Source: Naasia sp. SYSU D00057
GTDB taxonomy: Bacteria; Actinomycetota; Actinomycetes; Actinomycetales; Microbacteriaceae
Direction of reading: 5' to 3'
Assembly: GCF_017916505.1 (NCBI RefSeq)
Contig: NZ_JAFMSZ010000004.1
Coordinates: 1 to 64,000 of the forward strand
DNA length: 64,000 nt
Shown here: positions 3,268-24,072 of the stretch, piece by piece
How the letters are laid out: each line of letters starts with the position of its first letter
How positions within the stretch are numbered: position 1 is the first letter of the stretch
Notes under the pieces: model-generated
Databases searched by the model: none
What the model saw: only the letters and a program-made list of their open reading frames with translations
What the model was told of the DNA's origin: nothing
Position numbers and translations under genes: made by a program

Positions 3268-4220
3268 TGCTGCTCGGCGAGCCGGACGGACGTCCCGAGC
3301 TCCTCGCCCTCCGCACCCTCAAGCTCGGCGACCTCCTCGTCGCGGTGCCGGCGATCCACGCGCTGCGCCGCTCGAACCCGGAGCACCGCCTCATCCTGGC
3401 GATGCCGGGCTGGCTCGAGCCGATCGTCGACCTCGTCCCCGGGGTGGACGCGCTCCTCCCCGCACCCGGGCTCGACCGGCCGCTCGAGATCGAGCCCGGC
3501 CGCATCGACATCGCGGTGAACCTGCACGGCAACGGCGGGGAGAGCAAGGGACTGCTGGAGGCGATCCGGCCGCGGCGCCGGGTCGGGCACCGGTCGGAGG
3601 GCTGGGAGGGGCCGGTCTGGCTCGACGGGATTCACGAGCGGCACCGCTGGGCCCGCCTCGTCACCGAGCACGGGATGCCCGCCGACGAGAACGAGGTCGG
3701 CATCGGCGACCCGGGCCCCGCCGAGAACCTCGGCTCGGCCGTCATCCACGTCGGCGCCTTCTACGGCTCGCGCTTCTGGCCGGTGGAGCGCTTCGCCCAG
3801 GTGGCGCGCGCGTTCGAGCGGGACGGCATCCGCGCCGTCGTCACGGGCAGCGAGCGCGAGCGGGATCGGGCGCTCCAGGTCGCCGAGCTCGCCGGCCTCC
3901 GCGACGAGCAGGTGCTCGCCGGCCGCATCGGGCTGCGGGAGATGGCGGCGACGGTCGCGTCGGCCGAGATCGTCGTCTCCGTGGACACCGGCGCCGCCCA
4001 CCTCGCCTCCGCGTACCGGCGGCCGTCGGTCGTGATCTTCGGACCCGCCCCGCCCGAGGAGTGGGGTCCGCCGCCCGGGCCGCACGTCGTGCTCACCGAC
4101 GCGCGGCTGCGCGTGGGCGACACGTTCGGCAGCGAGCCGGACCCGGCGCTGCTCGCGGTGACGGCCGAGGACGTGCTCGCCGCGGCGGCCGGCCTGCTGA
4201 ACCGCGAGGGCCGTGGCTGA
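3267..4220 (+). CDS. Glycosyltransferase family 9, second copy
   Basis: I place the start at the ATG overlapping the stop of the preceding GT9 gene, giving 317 residues. An earlier in-frame start would bury the N-terminus in the upstream gene and adds arginine-rich residues unlike the family. The protein has LRTLKLGDLLVAVPAIHALR at the N-terminus, then VIHVGAFYGSRFWPVERFAQ and the GT9 donor motif VVSVDTGAAHLASAY. It is a shorter paralogue of its neighbour, so the pair may add two successive sugars, probably heptoses, to one glycan. A copy of the GCCTGCTGAA repeat lies in its last codons. Confidence 0.85.
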   Translation: MLLGEPDGRPELLALRTLKLGDLLVAVPAIHALRRSNPEHRLILAMPGWLEPIVDLVPGVDALLPAPGLDRPLEIEPGRIDIAVNLHGNGGESKGLLEAIRPRRRVGHRSEGWEGPVWLDGIHERHRWARLVTEHGMPADENEVGIGDPGPAENLGSAVIHVGAFYGSRFWPVERFAQVARAFERDGIRAVVTGSERERDRALQVAELAGLRDEQVLAGRIGLREMAATVASAEIVVSVDTGAAHLASAYRRPSVVIFGPAPPEEWGPPPGPHVVLTDARLRVGDTFGSEPDPALLAVTAEDVLAAAAGLLNREGRG

Positions 4221-4401
4221 GGTGCCGGCCAGGTGAGCCGGCCCGCTCCATTGGGTGCGCTCGCGGCGGGCGACGGTCGCTCTCCGCCGCTCCCCCCCCC
4301 GCCTCAGCAGGCACAGACCGGGTTCAGCAGGCATACGCGGCCCTGTTTCGCCTGCTGAAGGAGCGGAGTGCCTGCTGAAGGGGCTCGCCGTGCCTGCTGA
4401 A
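4192..4401. repeat. Array of six short repeats, TTCAGCAGGC / GCCTGCTGAA
   Basis: Between the convergent GT9 and hisN genes the motif occurs as CTCAGCAGGC at 4303 and TTCAGCAGGC at 4323, then reversed at 4350, 4370 and 4392; one more reversed copy ends the GT9 gene at 4192. Spacing within each set is about 20 bases, and the opposite orientations can pair into alternative hairpins. It may end transcription from both sides, or be a regulator-binding or mobile repeat cluster. A run of nine C residues lies just before it. Confidence 0.6.
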
Positions 4402-4418
4402 GAACCTCGCCGGACTGG

Positions 4419-5201
4419 CTAGCGGCCGAGCATGGTCAGCACCTGGTCGTGCAGGTGGCTGTTGGTGGCGAGCGCGCTGCCGTGCCATGGGCCGGGGGAG
4501 CCGTCGACCGAGGTGAAGCGGCCGCCCGCCTCCTCGACGATGGGCACGAGGGCCGCCATGTCGTACGGCTTCAGGTCGAACTCGGCGGCGACGTCGAGCG
4601 CGCCCTCCGCCACGAGCAGGTAGGACCAGAACTCGCCGTAGGCGCGCGTGCGCCACACGCAGTCGGCGAGGCGGAGCAGCTCCTCGGTGCGGCCCTCCTC
4701 CTGCCAGCCCTTGAGGCTGTTGTAGCTGAACGACGCATCCGTCAGCTCGCGGACCCCCGACACGGCGAGCCGGCGGGGCGTCCCGCCGATGCGGTCCGCG
4801 GTCCACGCGCCCTCGCCCTCGGCACCCCACCACTGCCGGCCGAGCGCGGGTGCCGCGACGGCGCCGACGACCGGGCGGCCGTCGACCGCGAGCGCGACGA
4901 GCGTGCCCCACACCGGGACGCCGCGCAGGAAGTTGGCGGTCCCGTCGATCGGGTCGACGATCCACTGCCGGCCGGACGCCCGGTCGCCGCCGTACTCCTC
5001 GCCGAGGATGGCGTCGTCGGATCGGGACTCCTGGAGCGCGGCGCGGAGCGCCTGCTCGACCGCCTGGTCGGCGTCGGTGACAGGGGTGCGGTCCGGCTTG
5101 GTCTCGACGCGCAGATCCTGCGCGCGGAACCGGTCCATGGCGACGACGGAGGCCATGTCGGCCAGGTCGCGCGCGAGCCTCAGATCGTCGGCGTAGCTCA
5201 C
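4419..5201 (-). CDS. hisN: Inositol monophosphatase-family phosphatase, probably histidinol-phosphatase HisN
   Basis: The 260-residue protein has the metal-binding motifs of the FIG superfamily: LGEEYGGD near residue 66, WIVDPIDGTANF near residue 80, and a late KPYDMAALVPIVEEAGG. Actinobacteria use a protein of this family, HisN, for the phosphatase step of histidine synthesis, and it commonly lies beside aroA and rsgA as here. An inositol or other sugar phosphatase is the alternative. The GTG start at 5201 has TAGGCT six bases upstream, overlapping the rsgA stop, so a separate leaderless promoter is likely in addition to readthrough. Confidence 0.8.
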   Translation of the reverse strand: MSYADDLRLARDLADMASVVAMDRFRAQDLRVETKPDRTPVTDADQAVEQALRAALQESRSDDAILGEEYGGDRASGRQWIVDPIDGTANFLRGVPVWGTLVALAVDGRPVVGAVAAPALGRQWWGAEGEGAWTADRIGGTPRRLAVSGVRELTDASFSYNSLKGWQEEGRTEELLRLADCVWRTRAYGEFWSYLLVAEGALDVAAEFDLKPYDMAALVPIVEEAGGRFTSVDGSPGPWHGSALATNSHLHDQVLTMLGR

Positions 5202-5207
5202 GCGCCC

Positions 5208-5213
5208 AGCCTA
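5208..5213 (-). promoter_or_regulatory. Candidate -10 (TAGGCT) of leaderless hisN transcript
   Basis: TAGGCT on the minus strand ends six bases before the hisN GTG and includes the rsgA stop codon. The same layout recurs at ten other genes here. No convincing -35 was found. Confidence 0.4.
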
Positions 5214-6314
5214 TGGCGTGACGTCCCCGGTGCGATCGTCCGCCGGGTCGTCGTCCCAGTCCTGCTGGGAGCGCGGATCGAGCGTGGTGAGCAGGCCGAC
5301 GAGCGACTCGAGGCGGCGCCGGCCCGACTCGCCGAGCTCCCCTCCGCGCACCCGGTCGACGATCTCCCAGTCGTGCGCCTCCACGAGCGGCACCTCGCCC
5401 TCCGGTGGCTCGGCGGCGATCGCACGCTGAGCGAAGGAGCGCAGCACGTTCTCGGACTGGACGTGGCCGAGGCCGAAGGAGCGGACGCCCGGGGTGTCGA
5501 TGATCCAGCCGGTGCGACCTTCCGCATCCCGCATCCGCAGCGAGACCGTCGACGAGGAGGTGTGCCTGCCGCGGCCGGTCACCTCGTTGACCGAGCCGAT
5601 GGCGCGATCGGCTCCGGGCACGAGCGCGTTGACGAGCGTCGACTTGCCCACTCCGGAGTGGCCGACGGCGACCGTCGTGCGGCCCACGAGCCGCTCCTGC
5701 AGCTCGGCGAGGGGCACCTCGCCGGCCGCGCTCGTCACGACGTCGAGGTTGAGCACCTCGAACTCGGCGAGGAACGGGGCGGGGTCCGCGAGATCGGCCT
5801 TCGTCACGACGAGGAGCGGATCGAGGCCGGCGTCGAACGCGGCCACCAGGTAGCGGTCGACGAGCCGCGCGCGCGGCTCGGGGTTCGCCGCGGCGACGAC
5901 GATCATCATCTGGTCGGCGTTCGCGACGATGATCCGCTCGACGTCGTCGGTGTCCTCGGCGCTGCGGCGGAGGAGCGTGGTGCGCTCGGCGATCCGGACC
6001 ACGCGCGACAGAGTGCCCTCGGCCCCGGAGGTGTCGCCGACGAGGTCCACGAAGTCGCCGGTGACGATCGAGTTGCGCCCGAGCTCCCGCGCGCGCTTCG
6101 CCGAGACCTCCCGCTCCTTCTCGGTGTCCTCGCCGAGCAGCACGGTCACGCGGCCGCGGTCGACGGTGAGGACGCGGCCGCGCTCGGCGTCCGCGTGCTC
6201 GGGCCGGTGCTTCGAGCGCGGGCGGCTGCCCCGCGGATTCGGGCGGACGCGGGCGGCCGTCTCGTCGTAGTCGGCGTAGGGCGTCTCGTCCTCGTCGCCG
6301 TCGAGCCAGCTCAT
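5211..6314 (-). CDS. rsgA: Small-subunit ribosome biogenesis GTPase RsgA
   Basis: The 367-residue protein has a charged N-terminal tail, an OB-like domain (about 47-110) and a circularly permuted GTPase. G4 (VVTKADL) comes before G1 (GHSGVGKSTLVNAL) and G3 (DTPGVRSFGL), which is diagnostic of RsgA. RsgA helps mature the 30S subunit. The usual C-terminal zinc-binding Cys-His cluster is absent: no cysteine follows G3. The gene starts 13 bases after aroA and ends nine bases before hisN, so the three are probably one operon. Confidence 0.88.
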   Translation of the reverse strand: MSWLDGDEDETPYADYDETAARVRPNPRGSRPRSKHRPEHADAERGRVLTVDRGRVTVLLGEDTEKEREVSAKRARELGRNSIVTGDFVDLVGDTSGAEGTLSRVVRIAERTTLLRRSAEDTDDVERIIVANADQMMIVVAAANPEPRARLVDRYLVAAFDAGLDPLLVVTKADLADPAPFLAEFEVLNLDVVTSAAGEVPLAELQERLVGRTTVAVGHSGVGKSTLVNALVPGADRAIGSVNEVTGRGRHTSSSTVSLRMRDAEGRTGWIIDTPGVRSFGLGHVQSENVLRSFAQRAIAAEPPEGEVPLVEAHDWEIVDRVRGGELGESGRRRLESLVGLLTTLDPRSQQDWDDDPADDRTGDVTP

Positions 6315-15923: not shown

Positions 15924-17249
15924 GTGCTGTTTGACTGGCTGATGTTCGCCGCCGGCGTGGTTCTCACGATCGGCACCGGCTTCTTCGTCGCCTCCGAGTT
16001 CGCGCTCGTCAACCTCGACCGAGGCGACCTCGAGGCGCGTGAGGCGAAGGGGGAGCGGCACCTCGGCGTCATCATCGGCGCGCTCCGCGTCACCTCCACG
16101 CACCTGTCGAGCGCGCAGCTCGGCATCACGATCACGACGCTGCTCACCGGCTACACGATGGAGCCCGCGATCAGCTCGCTGCTGCGCGGGCCGCTCGGCA
16201 CCGCCGGAGTGCCGGAGGCCCTGATCGGGCCCATCGGCACGATCGCCGGCGTGCTGCTCGCGACCCTGCTGTCGATGATCTTCGGTGAGCTCGTGCCGAA
16301 GAACCTCGCACTGTCGGTGCCGCGGATGACCGCGAAGGTCGTGATCCCGTTCCAGGTGCTGTTCACGACCGTGTTCCGGCCCGCCGTCGCACTGCTGAAC
16401 GGCACCGCGAACGCCGTCCTGCGCCTCCTCGGCGTCGAGCCGAAGGAGGAGCTGTCGGGCGCCCGCACCGCGGACGAGCTGAGCTCGCTCGTGCGGCGCT
16501 CGGCGCAGGAGGGCGTCCTCGACCGCGACACCGCGACCCTCCTCACCCGCACCCTCGGCTTCTCCGACCACACGGCGGCGGACGTCATGACGCCGCGCCC
16601 GCGGATCGCGAGCCTCGAGCGCTCCGACAGCGCCACCGACGTGCTCGAGCTCGCCCGGCGCACCGGCTACTCGCGCTTCCCCGTCACCGACGGCGGCCTC
16701 GACGACATCGTCGGCCTCGTGCACATCAAGCAGGCGGTCAGCGTTCCCCGCGACCGGCGCGCGACCGTTCCCGTCGGCGCGCTCGAGACCGAGGCGCTCC
16801 GTGTGCCGGAGACGATGCACCTCGACACCCTGCTCGAGGAGCTGCGCGGACGCGGCTACCAGATGGCTGTCGTCGTCGACGAGTACGGCGGCACCGCGGG
16901 TGTCGCCACCCTCGAGGACCTCGTCGAGGAGCTCGTCGGCGACCTCGTCGACGAGCACGACCGGACGCGGGCCGGCGTCGTCCGCACCAAGACGTCGCTG
17001 TCCTTCCCCGGCAGCCTCCGCCCCGACGAGCTGCTCGACCAGACCGGCATCGAGGTGCCCGAGGAGGGCCCCTACGAGACGGTCGCCGGCTTCGTGCTCA
17101 GCGAGCTCGGCCGCATCGCCGCCGTCGGCGACGAGGTGGCGATCCCCGCGGGAACACTCCGCGTCGTGCGGATGGACGGCCGCCGCATCGACCGGATCCG
17201 ATTCACCCCGAACCCCGACGAGCCGAACGAGGACGGGAGCGCATCGTGA
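15924..17249 (+). CDS. CNNM/CBS/CorC-domain membrane protein (hemolysin C family)
   Basis: The 441-residue protein has a CNNM transmembrane domain (about 1-190; four hydrophobic segments with [29 protein letters not shown] and [12 protein letters not shown]), a CBS pair (about 210-325, including [24 protein letters not shown] split over the second repeat) and a CorC_HlyC domain (about 350-430). Relatives are magnesium or cobalt exporters. The start is a GTG; a possible -10, TATACT, lies at 15844. It overlaps the next gene by GTGA, suggesting the two work as a pair. Confidence 0.88.
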
Positions 17250-18283
17250 GCGACTGGGGCGGCATCGCCGCACTCTTCGTGCTGCTGGCCATCAACGCGT
17301 TCTTCGTGGCGGCCGAGTTCGCCGTCATCTCCGCGCGCCGGTCGCAGATCGAGCCGCTCGCCGAGAAGGGCAAGCGCAGCGCGCGGACCGCGCTGTTCGC
17401 GATGGAGCACGCGACGCTGATGCTCGCGACCACGCAGCTCGGCATCACGATCTGCTCGCTGCTGATCCTCAATGTGTCCGAGCCGGCGATCCACCACCTG
17501 CTCGAGGTCCCGCTGCACTACACCGGGCTGCCGGAGGGCGCCATCGGCGCGATCTCGTTCGTGATCGCCCTGCTCCTCGTGTCGTTCCTGCACGTGGTCT
17601 TCGGCGAGATGGTGCCGAAGAACCTCTCCTTCTCGGTGCCGGATCGCGCCGTGCTGCTGCTCGCGGCGCCGCTCGTGTTCTTCGCGACCGTGTTCCGCCC
17701 GATCATCCGGGCCCTCAACGCGATCGCGAACGCGTTCGTCCGGCTGTTCAAGATCGAGCCGAAGGACGAGGCGAACAGCACGTTCACCCTCGAGGAGGTG
17801 CAGACGATCGTCGACCAGTCGACACGCGAGGGCGTCCTCACCGACCGCACCGGCGCGCTGACGGCCGCGTTCGAGTTCACCGAGAAGCGCGTGTCGGACG
17901 TCGCGATCCCGGTGGGCCAGCTGGTCAGCCTCCCCGAGGACGTGACGCCCGCCGCCCTCGAGCGCGCCGTCAGCCAGCACGGCTTCTCCCGCTACGTGCT
18001 CGTCGACGAGACGGGGGAGCCGACCGGCTACCTGCACCTCAAGGACGTGCTCGAGCTCGACGACGACGAGGCGCACCGGCCGGTGCCGCCGAAGTTCATC
18101 CGCCAGCTGGTGTCCGTCTACGAGGGCACCGAGCTGGAGGACGCCCTGGCCACCATGCGCCGCGCGGGCGCCCACCTGGGCCGTGCCTTCGACCAGCAGG
18201 GGGCGACGGCGGGCGTGCTGTTCCTCGAGGACATCATCGAGGAGCTCGTCGGCGAGGTGCAGGACGCGACCCGTCGCCGCTGA
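17246..18283 (+). CDS. CNNM/CBS-domain membrane protein, second gene
   Basis: The 345-residue paralogue of the preceding protein has the CNNM domain (NAFFVAAEFAVISARR, LATTQLGITICSLLI, FGEMVPKNLSFS) and a CBS pair (about 200-340), but it stops before a CorC_HlyC domain. The GTG start sits in the stop region of the first gene, so they are translationally coupled. Such tandem pairs in actinobacteria may form hetero-oligomeric metal transporters; that is inference. Confidence 0.87.
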   Translation: MSDWGGIAALFVLLAINAFFVAAEFAVISARRSQIEPLAEKGKRSARTALFAMEHATLMLATTQLGITICSLLILNVSEPAIHHLLEVPLHYTGLPEGAIGAISFVIALLLVSFLHVVFGEMVPKNLSFSVPDRAVLLLAAPLVFFATVFRPIIRALNAIANAFVRLFKIEPKDEANSTFTLEEVQTIVDQSTREGVLTDRTGALTAAFEFTEKRVSDVAIPVGQLVSLPEDVTPAALERAVSQHGFSRYVLVDETGEPTGYLHLKDVLELDDDEAHRPVPPKFIRQLVSVYEGTELEDALATMRRAGAHLGRAFDQQGATAGVLFLEDIIEELVGEVQDATRRR

Positions 18284-18319: not shown

Positions 18320-19402
18320 TCAGCCGCGCCAGCGCGCCCGGAGGTACTGCGGCGGCCAGTAGTCGAGCTGCGCACCGAGCTCGTGCGCGGCGCGGAGCGG
18401 GAAGTGCGGATCGCGCAGCAGCTCGCGGGCGAGCAGGACCACGTCGGCCCGGCCGGAGGCGACGATCTCCTCCGCCTGATGCGGATCGGTGATGAGCCCC
18501 ACCGCGCCGACGGGCGACTCGATCGCCTCGCGCACGTGCTCGGCGAGGTGCACCTGGTAGCCGGGGCCGACGGGGATGTCGACGCCGGGCACGAGACCCG
18601 CGCTCGAGACGTCGAACAGGTCGGCGCCCGCCTCCCGGCACCAGTCGGCGACGGCGGCCGTGTCCTCGACGGTCCAGCCGCCGTGCGCCCAGTCCGTGCC
18701 GCTGAACCGGACGAGCACGGGCGCGTCCGCACCGGCCGCCTCGCGCACCGCCCGCACGACGCGCAGCAGCAGGCGCGCCCGGTTCTCGAGGCTCCCGCCG
18801 TACTCGTCCTCGCGGAAGTTGCTGAGCGGCGACAGGAACTGGTGCAGCAGGTAGCCGTGCGCGGCGTGCACCTCGACGAGGTCGAAGCCCGCCTCGACGG
18901 CCCGCCGGGTCGCGGCCGCGAACGCGTCGACCACGGCGTCGATGCCGGCGGCGTCGAGTGCGCTCGGCTCCGCGTACCCGTCGAACGCGACGGCGGACGG
19001 CGCGACGGTCGGCCAGCCGCCCTGGTCGAGCGGCACCGAGCCGGACACCGGTGCCCAGGGCCGCCAGGTCGACGCCTTCCGCCCGGCGTGGGCCAGCTGG
19101 ATCCCCGCGACAGCGCCCTGGCCGTGCAGGAATCGGACGATGGGTCGCCACGCCTCGGCCTGCTCGTCGTTCCAGAGGCCCGTGTCCTCGGGCGTGATAC
19201 GCCCCTCCGGCACCACGGCCGTCGCCTCGACGATGACGCCCCCTGCTCCGCCCCGCGCGAGGCTGCCGAGGTGCACGAGGTGCCACTCGGTCGGCACGCC
19301 GTCGTGCCGGTCCACCGAGTACTGGCACATCGGCGCGACCCAGATCCGGTTGCGGGCGGTGACGCCGCGGAGCGTGAGCGGGGTGAACAGGACGGACGGC
19401 AT
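18320..19402 (-). CDS. NADH:flavin oxidoreductase, old yellow enzyme family (YqjM class)
   Basis: The 360-residue TIM-barrel flavoprotein begins with LFTPLTLRGVTARNRIWVAPMCQYS, which has the N-terminal cysteine typical of YqjM-like enzymes. It also has QLAHAGRKAS, VEVHAAHGYLLHQFLSP and DEYGGSLENRARLLL, covering the FMN-contacting and substrate-binding segments. Family members reduce the C=C bond of enones using NADPH, often for detoxification. GGAG precedes the ATG. Confidence 0.9.
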   Translation of the reverse strand: MPSVLFTPLTLRGVTARNRIWVAPMCQYSVDRHDGVPTEWHLVHLGSLARGGAGGVIVEATAVVPEGRITPEDTGLWNDEQAEAWRPIVRFLHGQGAVAGIQLAHAGRKASTWRPWAPVSGSVPLDQGGWPTVAPSAVAFDGYAEPSALDAAGIDAVVDAFAAATRRAVEAGFDLVEVHAAHGYLLHQFLSPLSNFREDEYGGSLENRARLLLRVVRAVREAAGADAPVLVRFSGTDWAHGGWTVEDTAAVADWCREAGADLFDVSSAGLVPGVDIPVGPGYQVHLAEHVREAIESPVGAVGLITDPHQAEEIVASGRADVVLLARELLRDPHFPLRAAHELGAQLDYWPPQYLRARWRG

Positions 19403-19542: not shown

Positions 19543-20382
19543 ATGACGGCGATCTCGGGCTGGACGGACGCGGACACTGCGGCGGAGTACCGCGTGCCCG
19601 TCCCGGGCGACGACAAGTACTCGCGCGGCGTCGTCGGCATCCTCACCGGATCGGCCCGGTATCCGGGCGCCGCGGTGCTCGGCGTCGAGGGTGCGGCCCG
19701 CGCGGGGACAGGCATGATCCGCTACCTCGGCGACGAGGGCGCCGCCCGCTTCGTGCTGCAGCGGAGGCCCGAGGCGGTGACCGCGCCCGGCCGGGTTCAG
19801 GCGTGGGTGATCGGCTCGGGCATGGACGCCGAGCAGCGCTCGGGCGAGCTGCGCGAGCAGATCGAGGCAGCCCTGTCGCAGGGGCTGCCCGTCGTGCTCG
19901 ACGCCGGTGCGCTCGACCTCGCCCGCGGCACGGAGGGGCCGACGCTCGTCACCCCGCACGCGGGCGAGCTCGCGAAGCTCCTCGGCGACCGCGGCGTCGA
20001 GGTGGAGCGACGGGCCGTCGAGGCGGACGGCGCGGGTTGGGCCGCGCGCGCGGCGGAGCTGCTCGGCGTCACGGTGCTGCTCAAGGGCAGCACGACCTTC
20101 GTGGTCCGGCCGGACGGCAGCGGCCACCGATTGCAGGCAGGGCCGGCGTGGCTCGCCACCGCCGGCTCCGGGGACGTGCTCGCGGGCATCCTCGGCGCGC
20201 TCGCCGCCGCGCGCTCGGACGACCTCGTCGCGGATCCCGCCCGCTTCGCCCGCGTCGCCGCGGCGGGCGCCTGGCTGCACGGCCGGGCGGGGGAGCGGGC
20301 GTCGGGCGGCGGTCCGCTTGTCGCCCTCGACATCGCCGAGGCCCTGCCGGGCGCCATCGCGGCACTCCTGCACGACTCTTGA
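19543..20382 (+). CDS. nnrD: ADP-dependent NAD(P)H-hydrate dehydratase
   Basis: The 279-residue protein is the ribokinase-like YjeF C-terminal domain on its own. It shows VVGILTGSARYPGAAVLGV, TLVTPHAGELAKLLG, VLLKGSTTFVV and TAGSGDVLAGILGAL, the nucleotide and NADHX-binding motifs. It repairs hydrated NADH and NADPH. The epimerase domain (NnrE) is not fused here and no gene for it is in the window. Confidence 0.9.
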   Translation: MTAISGWTDADTAAEYRVPVPGDDKYSRGVVGILTGSARYPGAAVLGVEGAARAGTGMIRYLGDEGAARFVLQRRPEAVTAPGRVQAWVIGSGMDAEQRSGELREQIEAALSQGLPVVLDAGALDLARGTEGPTLVTPHAGELAKLLGDRGVEVERRAVEADGAGWAARAAELLGVTVLLKGSTTFVVRPDGSGHRLQAGPAWLATAGSGDVLAGILGALAAARSDDLVADPARFARVAAAGAWLHGRAGERASGGGPLVALDIAEALPGAIAALLHDS

Positions 20383-20462: not shown

Positions 20463-20933
20463 ATGACCGCCGTGCCCACCATCCGGAGCAGCCGCACCGC
20501 CCTGCTGTCCCTCGCCGGACTCGGACTGATCGGCGCGCTCGCCGGCTGCTCCGGCAACGCCGTCGCGGAGGGCGCCGACACGGGCACCGACGCAGGCAGC
20601 GGCTCGAGCGCGGACACCGGCACGGGCGGAGACGGCACCTACGCGGACGGCACCTATGAGGCGGACGGCAGCTACACCTCGCCCGGCGGGCAGGAGAGCG
20701 TCGGCGTCAGCATCACACTGGAGGACGACGTCGTCACGGCCGTGACCGTGACGCCGCACGCGACGAGCGGCAACGCGAAGCAGTTCCAGACGCAGTTCGC
20801 CGGCGCCATCGCGGGCGAGGTGGTGGGCAAGGACATCGACTCGCTGGAGGTGTCGCGCGTCGCCGGATCGTCGCTCACGAGCGGGGGCTTCAACGACGCG
20901 CTGGAGGCGATCAAGGCCGATGCCGCCTCGTGA
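20463..20933 (+). CDS. FMN-binding-domain lipoprotein (flavinylated electron carrier)
   Basis: The 156-residue exported lipoprotein has a signal peptide and lipobox LAGC with Cys29, then a Gly/Ser/Thr/Asp-rich tether (about 32-60), then an FMN-binding domain. The flavinylation motif is VAGSSLTSGGF with Thr139 the likely acceptor. In this family ApbE attaches FMN through a phosphoester to that threonine, and the apbE gene overlaps this one by 14 bases. The ATG follows AAGGAGAG. The protein should sit on the outer face of the membrane and accept electrons from the membrane reductase two genes down. Confidence 0.85.
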   Translation: MTAVPTIRSSRTALLSLAGLGLIGALAGCSGNAVAEGADTGTDAGSGSSADTGTGGDGTYADGTYEADGSYTSPGGQESVGVSITLEDDVVTAVTVTPHATSGNAKQFQTQFAGAIAGEVVGKDIDSLEVSRVAGSSLTSGGFNDALEAIKADAAS

Positions 20934-21783
20934 GCGGCGCTTCGACGCGATCGGCACGTCCTGGCGCATCGACACCGCCGAGCCGCTGGGCGACGCCGTG
21001 TTCGCGGCGATCCTCGCGCGCATCGACGGGTTCGACCGCGCCTACTCGCGCTTCCGCGCCGACTCGCTCGTCCGCCGCCTGGCCCGGGATGGCGGCACCG
21101 TCGAGTTCCCGGAGGAGGACCGCGCGCTGTTCGAGCTGTACGACGCGCTCCACCGCCTCACCGGCGGCGCCATGACCCCGCTCGTCGGGGCGTCGCTCGA
21201 GCGCCTCGGCTACGACGCGGACTACCGGCTCGGTCCGGCAGGCCCCGCCCTGCCGAGCCCGGCCTGGGCCGACAGCATCACGGTGGACGGCACCCGTGTG
21301 ACGGCGGCGCATCCGGTGCTTCTCGATCTCGGAGCGGCCGGAAAGGGCCGCCTCGTCGATCTCGTGCAGGGGGAGCTCGCCGCGCTCGGCGCAGCGGAGT
21401 CGACGGTCGACGCGAGCGGCGACCTCCGGCACGCAGGCCCGCAGCCGCTGCGCGTCGCGCTCGAGCACCCCTACGACCCGAAGCGGGCCATCGGGGTCGT
21501 CGAGGTTCGGGGAGCGCTCTGCGCCTCGGCGGCGAACCGGCGCGCCTGGGGCGACGGGCTGCACCACGTCCTCGACGCGCGCACGGGCCTCCCGGTCCGG
21601 GAGGTGGCCGCCACCTGGGTGCTCGCCGACACCGCCCTCGTCGCGGACGGCCTCGCCACCGCCCTGTTCCTCGCCGAGCCGGCCGCCCTTCTCGACGACT
21701 TCGACTTCTCCTACGTGCGGATGTTCACCGACGGTGCCGCCGAGTGGTCCGCCGACCTGCCGGGCGAGGTGTTCACGGCGTGA
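20920..21783 (+). CDS. apbE: FAD:protein FMN transferase
   Basis: The 287-residue ApbE-family protein shows FDRAYSRFRADSLVRRL near residue 40, the magnesium/FAD-site motif LDLGAAGKGRLVD near residue 135, VDASGDL near residue 165, and HHVLDARTGLPV with VADGLATALF. No signal peptide is obvious, which is notable because many ApbE proteins are exported. Its likely substrate is the FMN-binding lipoprotein encoded just upstream. It overlaps the next gene by GTGA. Confidence 0.88.
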   Translation: MPPRERRFDAIGTSWRIDTAEPLGDAVFAAILARIDGFDRAYSRFRADSLVRRLARDGGTVEFPEEDRALFELYDALHRLTGGAMTPLVGASLERLGYDADYRLGPAGPALPSPAWADSITVDGTRVTAAHPVLLDLGAAGKGRLVDLVQGELAALGAAESTVDASGDLRHAGPQPLRVALEHPYDPKRAIGVVEVRGALCASAANRRAWGDGLHHVLDARTGLPVREVAATWVLADTALVADGLATALFLAEPAALLDDFDFSYVRMFTDGAAEWSADLPGEVFTA

Positions 21784-23279
21784 GGCTCCTCGACCGCTTC
21801 ACCGGGAGCGTGCCGATGTACCGGCTCGTCACCCTCGCCCTGCTGATGCTCGCCGCCGTGTCCCTCGTGCTGTCGGCGACGGGCGGCATCTTCTACCCGC
21901 CGCTCGCGCTCGTCCTGTCGGGACTGGTGGCGGTCGGGGCCACGTGGGGCGCCAGCCGGCTGCTCGGGATCGCGTTCGGCGTGCGGCCGCACGACGAGTC
22001 CTCGGTCATCACCGGACTCATCCTCTTCTTCCTGTTCCTGCCCACCCTCGAGCCGGTGGGGCTCAGCGTGATCGCCTTCGCGGGCGTCCTGGCCGCCGCG
22101 AGCAAGTTCCTCCTGGTCCGGCACCGCCGGCACCTGTTCAACCCGGCCGCGGGGGCCGCGTTCCTGGTGGGGCTGACCGGACTCGGCGCGGCGGGCTGGT
22201 GGGTGGCGACGCCCGCGCTCGCGCCGCTCACCGCGGTGCTCGCGCTGCTGGTGCTCGCCCGGACCCGGACCCTCGGCACCGGCGCGCTGTTCGCCGGTCT
22301 CGCCTTCGTCCTCGTGGTGGCGCAGCTGCTGCCCTTCACCTCGGGCATCGCGGAGGCCGCGGGACTCGCGCTCGGCTCGTACCCGATCCTCTTCCTCGCG
22401 GGCTTTCTGCTCACCGAGCCGCAGACGCTGCCACCGCGGCGGTGGCAGCGGCTCGTCGTCGCCGCGGTCGTCGCTGTGCTGTTCGCGCTCCCGCTCACCT
22501 TCGGCTTCTCCGTCGGCACCTTCTATCTCAGCTCTGAGTTCGCGGTCGTCGCCGGGAACGCGGTCGCCGCGCTGCTCGCACTGCCGCTCGGCGCGAAGCT
22601 GCGCTTCACGGGGCGGCGGGAGGTCGCGCCGGGCGTCAGCGAGTTCTCGTTCGCGCCCGACCGGCCCGTCCGCGTGCTGCCGGGCCAGTACGTCGAGCTC
22701 GACCTGCCGCACGCGAAGGCGGACCGGCGCGGCCGCCGCCGTCACCTCACCGTCGTCGGGGCCGAGGACGGCGAGCTGCGCGTCGCCGTGCGCACACCGG
22801 AGCCGGGCAGCTCGTTCAAGCGCGCCCTCGCCGCGCTCGACCCGGGCGACGAGGTGCGGCTGACGACGGTCGGCGGCGACTTCCTGCTGCCGGACGATCC
22901 CGCGGTGCCCGTGCTCCTCGTCGCCGGCGGGATCGGCGTGACGCCGTTCGTGCGGCAGCTCGAGGCGGATGCGGTCGCGGGCGTCGACCGCGATGTGGTC
23001 GTGCTCCTCCGGGCGCCCTCGCCGGCCGAGGCGGCCTACCTCGACCGGCTGGCGGCGCTCGCGGACGCCGTGTTCCTCGTCACGCCGGAGCCGCCGGAGC
23101 GCGAGCAGCCCGGCGTGCGCTGGGCGCGGTCGCTCGAGGAGGCGCTCGCGCAGGTCGACCGGCTGGGCGACCGCCGGGTGTACGCGTCCGGCTCCCCGTC
23201 CTTCCTCGACCGCGCGCGGCGGGCGCTCAAGACGGCCGGCGCGGGCCGCGTGCACACGGACCTCTTCTCCGGCTACTGA
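21780..23279 (+). CDS. RnfD/NqrB-like membrane domain fused to ferredoxin-NADP reductase-like domain
   Basis: I use the GTG that overlaps the apbE stop, giving 499 residues. The first 270 or so form roughly ten hydrophobic segments. They resemble RnfD/NqrB-type subunits, including RHRRHLFNPAAGAAFLVG and GFLLTEPQTLPPRRWQR. The rest is a flavin reductase domain: VLPGQYVELDLP, an FAD-binding RRRHLTVVG and the NAD(P)-binding LLVAGGIGVTPFVRQLE. No iron-sulfur motif is present. I infer that it takes electrons from cytosolic NAD(P)H across the membrane to the flavinylated lipoprotein. Confidence 0.8.
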   Translation: MRLLDRFTGSVPMYRLVTLALLMLAAVSLVLSATGGIFYPPLALVLSGLVAVGATWGASRLLGIAFGVRPHDESSVITGLILFFLFLPTLEPVGLSVIAFAGVLAAASKFLLVRHRRHLFNPAAGAAFLVGLTGLGAAGWWVATPALAPLTAVLALLVLARTRTLGTGALFAGLAFVLVVAQLLPFTSGIAEAAGLALGSYPILFLAGFLLTEPQTLPPRRWQRLVVAAVVAVLFALPLTFGFSVGTFYLSSEFAVVAGNAVAALLALPLGAKLRFTGRREVAPGVSEFSFAPDRPVRVLPGQYVELDLPHAKADRRGRRRHLTVVGAEDGELRVAVRTPEPGSSFKRALAALDPGDEVRLTTVGGDFLLPDDPAVPVLLVAGGIGVTPFVRQLEADAVAGVDRDVVVLLRAPSPAEAAYLDRLAALADAVFLVTPEPPEREQPGVRWARSLEEALAQVDRLGDRRVYASGSPSFLDRARRALKTAGAGRVHTDLFSGY

Positions 23280-23307: not shown

Positions 23308-24072
23308 CTAGGTCTCGGCGGCCGGCGGCAGCCCGGTCCGGCCGCCGACCCGGGCGAGGAACTCACGGGTGCGCGGCTCGCGCGGGCTGCCGAACACCTC
23401 GTCGGGCGTGCCCTCCTCGGCGACGAGACCGCCGTCGAGGAACACGACCCGGTCCGCGACGTCGCGGGCGAACGCCATCTCGTGCGTCGCCATGAGGATC
23501 GTCGTGCCGGCCCGGGCCAGCTCGCGCACGAGCTCGAGCACCTCGCCGACGAGCTCGGGGTCGAGGGCGCTCGTCACCTCGTCGAGCAGCAGCAGGTCCG
23601 GGTCGGTCGCGATCGCCCGGACGATGGCGACTCGCTGCTGCTGGCCGCCGGAGAGCCGGTCGGGATACGAGCGCGCGTGCTCGGCGAGCCCGATGCGCTC
23701 GAGCAGATCCAGGGCGCGCCGCTCCGCGTCTCCGCGGCTGCGGCGCAGCACGTGCCGGGAGGCGAGCGTCACGTTGTCGAGCACGGACAGGTGCGGGAAC
23801 AGGTTGAAGTGCTGGAAGACCACGCCGATCCGCGCCCGGACGGGGTCCGGCTTCACGCGCGGGTCGCTGATGTCCTCGCCGCCCAGCAGGACCTGTCCGT
23901 CATCGATCGGCTCCAGCAGGTTGACCACCCGCAGCAGCGTCGACTTGCCCGACCCGCTCGCCCCGATGAGGGCGACGACGTCGCCCTCGGCCACGGCCAG
24001 GTCGATGCCGCGGAGCACCTCGCGGTCGCCGAACGACTTGCGGATGCCGGAGAGCCTCAGCAGCTCGCTCAT
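23308..24072 (-). CDS. Polar amino-acid ABC transporter ATP-binding protein
   Basis: The 254-residue ATPase has Walker A GASGSGKST, the Q-loop in VVFQHFNLFPHLSV, signature LSGGQQQRVAIVRAI, Walker B LLLLDEVTSALDPE and switch ATHEMAFARD. These forms are typical of the GlnQ/HisP-type amino-acid importer class. The ATG overlaps the permease stop (ATGA), the last step of a substrate-binding protein-permease-ATPase operon. Confidence 0.93.
   Translation of the reverse strand: MSELLRLSGIRKSFGDREVLRGIDLAVAEGDVVALIGASGSGKSTLLRVVNLLEPIDDGQVLLGGEDISDPRVKPDPVRARIGVVFQHFNLFPHLSVLDNVTLASRHVLRRSRGDAERRALDLLERIGLAEHARSYPDRLSGGQQQRVAIVRAIATDPDLLLLDEVTSALDPELVGEVLELVRELARAGTTILMATHEMAFARDVADRVVFLDGGLVAEEGTPDEVFGSPREPRTREFLARVGGRTGLPPAAET

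Follow-up and report, generated by a model that had tools for sequence, protein, structure and literature searches.

The 64,000-nucleotide (nt) stretch of contig NZ_JAFMSZ010000004.1 from Naasia sp. SYSU D00057, here called the window, encodes a compact, coupled, three-gene flavin-based system that is a divergent member of a published class, the NQR/RNF-like systems. All three genes lie on the forward (+) strand. The first (20463..20933) encodes a flavin mononucleotide (FMN)-binding lipoprotein of the FMN_bind/NqrC/RnfG type, 156 amino acids (aa) long. The second (20920..21783) is apbE, whose 287-aa product is a flavin adenine dinucleotide (FAD):protein FMN transferase without a signal peptide. 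The third (21780..23279) starts with GTG and encodes a 499-aa fusion of an RnfD/NqrB-like membrane domain with an FNR-type domain. The lipoprotein gene and apbE overlap by 14 nt, and apbE and the fusion gene by 4 nt (GTGA). This layout agrees with the original prediction, made from the DNA letters and their translations, which had placed three genes with overlapping ends at these positions. The identities it assigned are borne out by a PF02424 match for ApbE (E 5.2e-36), by homologues for FMN_bind and RnfD, and by an NCBIfam match for the FNR-type domain (E 3.6e-14); its description of a compact flavin-only module leading from NAD(P)H to the outside is supported by the predicted anatomy. Its suggestion that a fusion with this partner set was undescribed does not hold. 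Such sets have been defined as NQR/RNF-like systems, mainly from Actinobacteria and the candidate phyla radiation (CPR) (Meheust et al. 2021, eLife; PMC8238504), and a structural model of one was reported by the same group (mSystems 2024; PMC11334425).

The best explanation, and a likely one, is that the module works as a member of this class, passing electrons from NAD(P)H through FAD and a membrane flavin to a serine-bound FMN outside the cell, with the FMN attached in the cytosol. Cytosolic NAD(P)H would reduce FAD in the C-terminal reductase domain, and electrons would cross the membrane via a flavin bound non-covalently in the RnfD-like domain. FMN covalently bound to the lipoprotein at Ser137, on the outer face, would take them up and hand them to an acceptor, for which ferric iron or a quinone is plausible. 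Electron flow would be one-way, and no subunit of an ion pump was noticed beside the module. This NAD(P)H-to-outside path, including its direction, is proposed in PMC8238504 and PMC11334425 and fits the anatomy; to it we add that the dedicated ApbE would most likely attach FMN while the pre-lipoprotein is still in the cytosol, ahead of its export. The module would then be a minimal all-flavin route across the membrane, one that occurs in 20 of the 37 genomes searched in the window's family and is easily missed by Pfam censuses. If a leaderless ApbE does load an exported protein from inside, it would be a widespread exception to the rule that outer flavinylation depends on exported ApbE and exported FAD.

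The fusion protein consists of a membrane domain at about residues 1-270, with about ten predicted helices, and an FNR-type flavin/NAD(P)H domain at about 272-499. The window protein has no Pfam match at E 0.001 and reaches PF00175 at E 0.13 only; its reductase domain matches FNR-type models of NCBIfam, best over residues 298-492. The membrane domain is predicted to be of the NqrB/RnfD type, an identity that comes from the family profile; a Pfam search with the window protein itself does not give it. That profile matches RnfD of the Azotobacter RNF complex (8ahx_D) at E 2.7e-8 and E. coli RsxD with an hhalign probability of 94%. In an alignment of 22 membrane domains hand-chosen for diversity (A3), 13 match NQR2_RnfD_RnfE (PF03116) at E≤1 and two at 0.001, and 10 of 22 family members match PF00175 at E≤0.001. 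The structure model of the fusion combines about ten membrane helices with an FNR fold, at a mean predicted local distance difference test score (pLDDT) of 87. Its best Foldseek matches are flavohaemoglobin, the bacterial NADPH oxidase SpNOX (ranks 5 and 6) and FNR domains including that of NqrF.

The window fusion has no Cys and is one of 26 Cys-free proteins among 73 fusions, a set that leaves out matches under 380 model positions and locus L086, which has a stop inside. Because Cys is absent, Fe-S clusters in the window fusion are excluded, in accord with the earlier view that the reductase has no iron-sulfur site. A bis-His haem is unlikely since His118 is the only invariant His in the fusion alignment (A1). 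Flavins would be the remaining cofactors. Thr187 of E. coli RsxD and Thr174 of RsxG are taken here to be FMN sites. RsxD Thr187 aligns with Thr144 of the window fusion, which lacks the preceding motif, and the domain lacks long stretches around this position. The aligned column holds T in 46, S in 16, N in 7 and A in 4 of the 73 fusions. The idea that Thr144 carries another covalent flavin, within the membrane domain, was rejected, as the column is not conserved. This absence of a conserved flavinylation Thr of NqrB/RnfD in the fusion family agrees with the published loss of the site (PMC11334425).

The window lipoprotein has a single Cys, C29, inside the lipobox LAGC, which was called by pattern match and not by SignalP. 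Among 70 lipoproteins from fusion loci (L087, L088 and L089, without fusion, were dropped), 60 have the lipobox pattern and the remaining ones an N-terminal hydrophobic segment; the protein is predicted to be exported or membrane-anchored. Export of a folded flavoprotein by the twin-arginine translocation (Tat) route was considered and rejected, as only 4 of the 70 have RR-x-hydrophobic close to the N-terminus. A Pfam search at E 0.001 gave no match for the window lipoprotein, and its identity as an FMN_bind-type protein appears settled through its relatives. In 11 of the 60 genomes searched, namely ten with the fusion plus G005, an orthologue passes the FMN_bind (PF04205) cut-off at the corresponding position. 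In an alignment of 36 of the 70 lipoproteins, hand-chosen for diversity (A2), 31 match FMN_bind at E≤1 and 22 at 0.001. In the structure model the core, from residue 61 on, has pLDDT mostly >90, and RnfG and SaFMN3 are among the best Foldseek matches (E 0.03-0.05). Pfam-based surveys would be expected to undercount this branch, because at 0.001 only 2/22 membrane domains match PF03116, 10/22 fusions PF00175 and 22/36 lipoproteins FMN_bind; the window copy would be missed.

The motif of the window lipoprotein reads S131-R-V-A-G-S-S137-L-T139-S. The original prediction had named Thr139 as the FMN site. That residue exists, but in a MAFFT alignment it is Ser137, not Thr139, that aligns with RsxG Thr174, which lies in TGAT. 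The probable flavin acceptor is Ser137, because of this alignment and of the correspondence between GA[TS] and GSS among homologues (hhalign to RsxG not significant). The position of the RsxG and RsxD sites is consistent with D-x-x-[ST]-G-A-[ST], the flavinylation motif given in a review (PMC12052999), in which the final residue carries the FMN. Across the 70 lipoproteins the acceptor position reads GSS in 61, SSS in one, GAS in one and GAT in seven, so that Ser is present in 63.

Acceptor motif and ApbE subtype appear to change together, because the ApbE beside GA[TS] lipoproteins reaches no more than about 29-47 bits with the module profile, while those scored beside GSS or SSS lipoproteins exceed 300 bits; the rows are related and do not represent independent events. 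The eight GA[TS] lipoproteins (L126, L137, L139, L140, L141, L143, L146 and L147; the ApbE of L140 was not scored) come from Chloroflexota, Patescibacteria or unclassified loci. They indicate a second subtype, found in Chloroflexota and most CPR members here, with a [ST]GA[TS] motif and a distant ApbE that is leaderless where measured. The actinobacterial motif/ApbE pair is also carried by two Uhrbacteria loci, L130 and L134.

Of 60 genomes searched, 22 encode a full-length fusion, counting the window's own, as do 19 of a class-wide sample of 296. Among those 19, the copy in G195 (L086) has one internal stop, and that module is possibly decaying or misassembled. The grouping of the three genes in the original prediction is upheld in relatives. 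In the 38 fusion loci from the genome searches (the window, 21 and 16 others), the lipoprotein gene is upstream on the same strand in all 38, at about 2.6 kb from apbE in L076, and apbE is present at 37; the exception, G024, has a close apbE elsewhere in its genome (L095, 210 bits). Within the 60 genomes the lipoprotein occurs in each of the 22 that have the fusion and in 3 of the 38 that do not (G005, G055 and G056; E below 1e-13), giving a Fisher p of 1.6e-13, not corrected for kinship. Matches in G015 (E 3e-4) and G047 (E 6e-4) were counted as absent, as they cover only residues 10-97, outside most of the FMN domain. In G005 (L087) the apbE match covers residues 3-103 only and the fusion was not found in a genome that is 68% complete; this module, too, is possibly decaying or misassembled. 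L088 and L089 are GAS-motif FMN_bind lipoproteins in G055 and G056, where the fusion was not found. L088 adjoins an apbE in opposite orientation, and L089 adjoins MacB-type ATP-binding cassette (ABC)/permease genes, as judged by eye. Among named genomes, the 36 best loci whose upstream DNA is long enough have both partners in 34 cases; in L119 and L144 a contig end cuts the locus short. Fusion loci also occur in Dictyobacter, Ktedonospora and Anaerolineaceae, presumably all Chloroflexota, and in several members of what we take to be the phylum Patescibacteria, which fits the published distribution.

The Ser-His-Asp residues of ApbE, mapped by eye as the Ser of (C/A)-x-S, H-H and A-D, are kept among the aligned rows listed; a catalytic triad of this composition is named in PMC12052999. 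Upstream of the conserved core, the apbE open frame contains a single ATG/GTG/TTG codon, ATG 20920. Leaders were scored with a home-made threshold, a 12-residue mean hydropathy of 1.9, in place of SignalP. It is passed by 54 of the 70 partner lipoproteins, all of which reach ≥1.5, and by 8 of 17 ApbEs of other phyla, of which two more are Tat-like by eye; E. coli ApbE, with a strong leader, gives a yardstick of 2.68. None of the module ApbEs at the 65 loci measured passes. Two have maxima of 1.48 and 1.53 and the others ≤0.78, and at 32 of the 65 loci an in-frame stop is found ≤30 codons upstream of the core. The core was not located in L041, L119, L128, L134 and L147 (the L119 gene runs off its contig), the ApbE of L146 falls just short of the score cut, and L039, L117, L140, L142, L144 and L148 have no scored ApbE; the starts inspected by eye among loci outside the 65 have no obvious leader. 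None of 20 ApbEs picked from the window's relatives (L090-L109, including L095, the module-type enzyme of G024) passes either. Leaderless ApbE may thus be wider than the module and general in the class.

The genome of the window (G000) encodes one ApbE in total. A PF04205 search of it found no FMN_bind protein, with a model that also misses the window lipoprotein itself. The lipoprotein is likely the only ApbE substrate in G000, the search having covered substrates of the FMN_bind kind. An ApbE predicted to lack a leader beside a partner predicted to be exported presents a topological puzzle, as PMC12052999 pairs exported ApbEs with exported substrates and a cytosolic ApbE with a cytosolic substrate. 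The portions of the literature searched, figures and supplements excluded, do not discuss an ApbE that lacks a leader and has an exported substrate, and the wording 'cytosolic flavinylation' was not found in the main text of PMC8238504.

Flavinylation before export is put forward tentatively as the solution, at slightly less than even confidence. A cytosolic ApbE with its own specificity for the serine motif would load the pre-lipoprotein, which would then be moved by its Sec-type signal, and therefore no FAD exporter would be needed. The leaderless arrangement recurs in the modules examined from Actinomycetota, Chloroflexota and Patescibacteria, and motif and ApbE subtype would form a matched pair. 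The same electron chain could instead be served by an ApbE that acts outside, reached by an unrecognised export route and using secreted FAD as FmnB does in Listeria. Most characterised ApbEs are exported lipoproteins (PMC12052999), outer flavinylation in Listeria requires extracytosolic FAD (PMC9973259), and the E. coli enzyme has its strong leader. We consider this unlikely for the module, where no measured ApbE reaches the leader threshold, nearly half of the loci leave little or no room for a leader upstream of the core, and the ApbEs picked from relatives fall short as well.

Two further explanations concern the electron chain itself. The fusion could be mainly a transmembrane enzyme that passes electrons from NAD(P)H to oxygen or a quinone, as an oxidase or reductase, and the lipoprotein could have a regulatory function or form a minor branch. 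The SpNOX matches of the reductase half and the orphan fusion of L117 would suit such a role, which is nevertheless improbable given a single invariant His in the membrane domain, hence no conserved haem pair, and the retention of the lipoprotein and apbE in nearly all loci. It is more improbable still, to the point of being hardly credible, that the module is left over from, or belongs to, an ion-pumping NQR/RNF complex whose other subunits lie elsewhere. One of its subunits is homologous to RnfD and another to the FMN_bind family, which includes RnfG/NqrC. The membrane domain, however, lacks the long stretches around RsxD Thr187 and has a variable residue at that site, and no further Rnf-like subunit was noticed among the 25 largest flanking-frame clusters, which were not family-annotated, the rest of G000 lying outside the search for Rnf/Nqr.

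Several observations weigh against the NQR/RNF-like scheme with cytosolic flavinylation. The fold match of the lipoprotein is weak (best Foldseek E 0.03) and mixed with IscU/SufU-type matches, and hhalign of the lipoprotein against RsxG gave a score that is not significant. The 50 best Foldseek rows for the fusion concern the reductase half, and none supports the membrane half. The acceptor is Ser in place of Thr, and the motif Asp position is Ser131 in the window; a Thr-to-Ser change lowers flavinylation and the Asp is of little importance (PMC12052999). An early study cited in the same review found that a cytosolically expressed ApbE could not substitute for an exported one. Two loci of named genomes, L142 and L117, lack the partners nearby. 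In L117 the Paenarthrobacter fusion (4001-5482) is separated from an argS-like gene by a gene like those of the major facilitator superfamily (by eye), in the partners' place. The genome of L117 has one weak lipoprotein-like match elsewhere (E 3.5e-16) and gave no match to the window ApbE in a search that had no positive control.

The module is flanked upstream by two overlapping tandem genes for CNNM/CBS (CorC-type) membrane proteins (15924-18283; PF01595), a gene like those for NADPH dehydrogenases of the old yellow enzyme (OYE) family (18320-19402, - strand) and an NAD(P)H-hydrate dehydratase gene (19543-20382, + strand). Downstream is a gene for the ATP-binding subunit of an amino-acid-type ABC transporter (23308-24072, - strand), followed on the same strand by permease-like and binding-protein-like frames (by eye). 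The two genes beside the module upstream were considered as functional partners and rejected, the module having the hydrate dehydratase gene nearby in 8 of 21 relatives and the OYE-type gene nearby in 7. The 25 largest flanking-frame clusters mostly track lineage. An ABC-ATPase cluster that extends over 19 loci from several genera is attributed to similarity within the superfamily and is not taken for a component of the module. No iron-transport partner was seen among these 25 clusters, which had no family-search annotation. Microbacterium-type loci (L077-L082 and several others) have response-regulator-like and sensor-kinase-like frames nearby (by eye), possibly mere synteny.

The window module shares with RNF (RnfD/RnfG) and NQR (NqrB/NqrC) the homology of the membrane and FMN domains, and differs from these complexes in that its cluster has no Fe-S protein, its reductase is fused, and its membrane domain has no conserved covalent FMN site. 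Flavin-based extracellular electron transfer in Listeria uses a different membrane reductase. The Listeria FmnB/PplA pair resembles the module in that an ApbE-type enzyme puts FMN on an outer electron-accepting protein; FmnB is extracytosolic and needs FAD export, whereas the window ApbE is leaderless (PMC9973259). The MsrQ-like flavinylation systems of Actinobacteria also occur in flavinylation clusters, with a transmembrane domain that often has a C-terminal PF00175 domain, but that membrane domain is haem-based, unlike the fusion family with its single invariant His (PMC8238504). A cytosolic ApbE of Klebsiella, which serves a soluble fumarate reductase, likewise has no signal peptide (PMC12052999); its substrate is cytosolic, whereas that of the window module is predicted to be exported. 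The closest likeness is to the NQR/RNF-like systems, with an NqrB/RnfD-type membrane domain fused to a cytosolic NAD-binding domain, an NqrC/RnfG-type outer FMN subunit, a flavinylation gene cluster, Actinobacteria among the main hosts and no conserved FMN-Thr of NqrB/RnfD (PMC8238504, PMC11334425). The window copy departs from them in lying below Pfam detection, in an AGSS (Ser) acceptor motif in place of [ST]GAT, and in its leaderless ApbE, a point without mention in the portions of the published account drawn on here.

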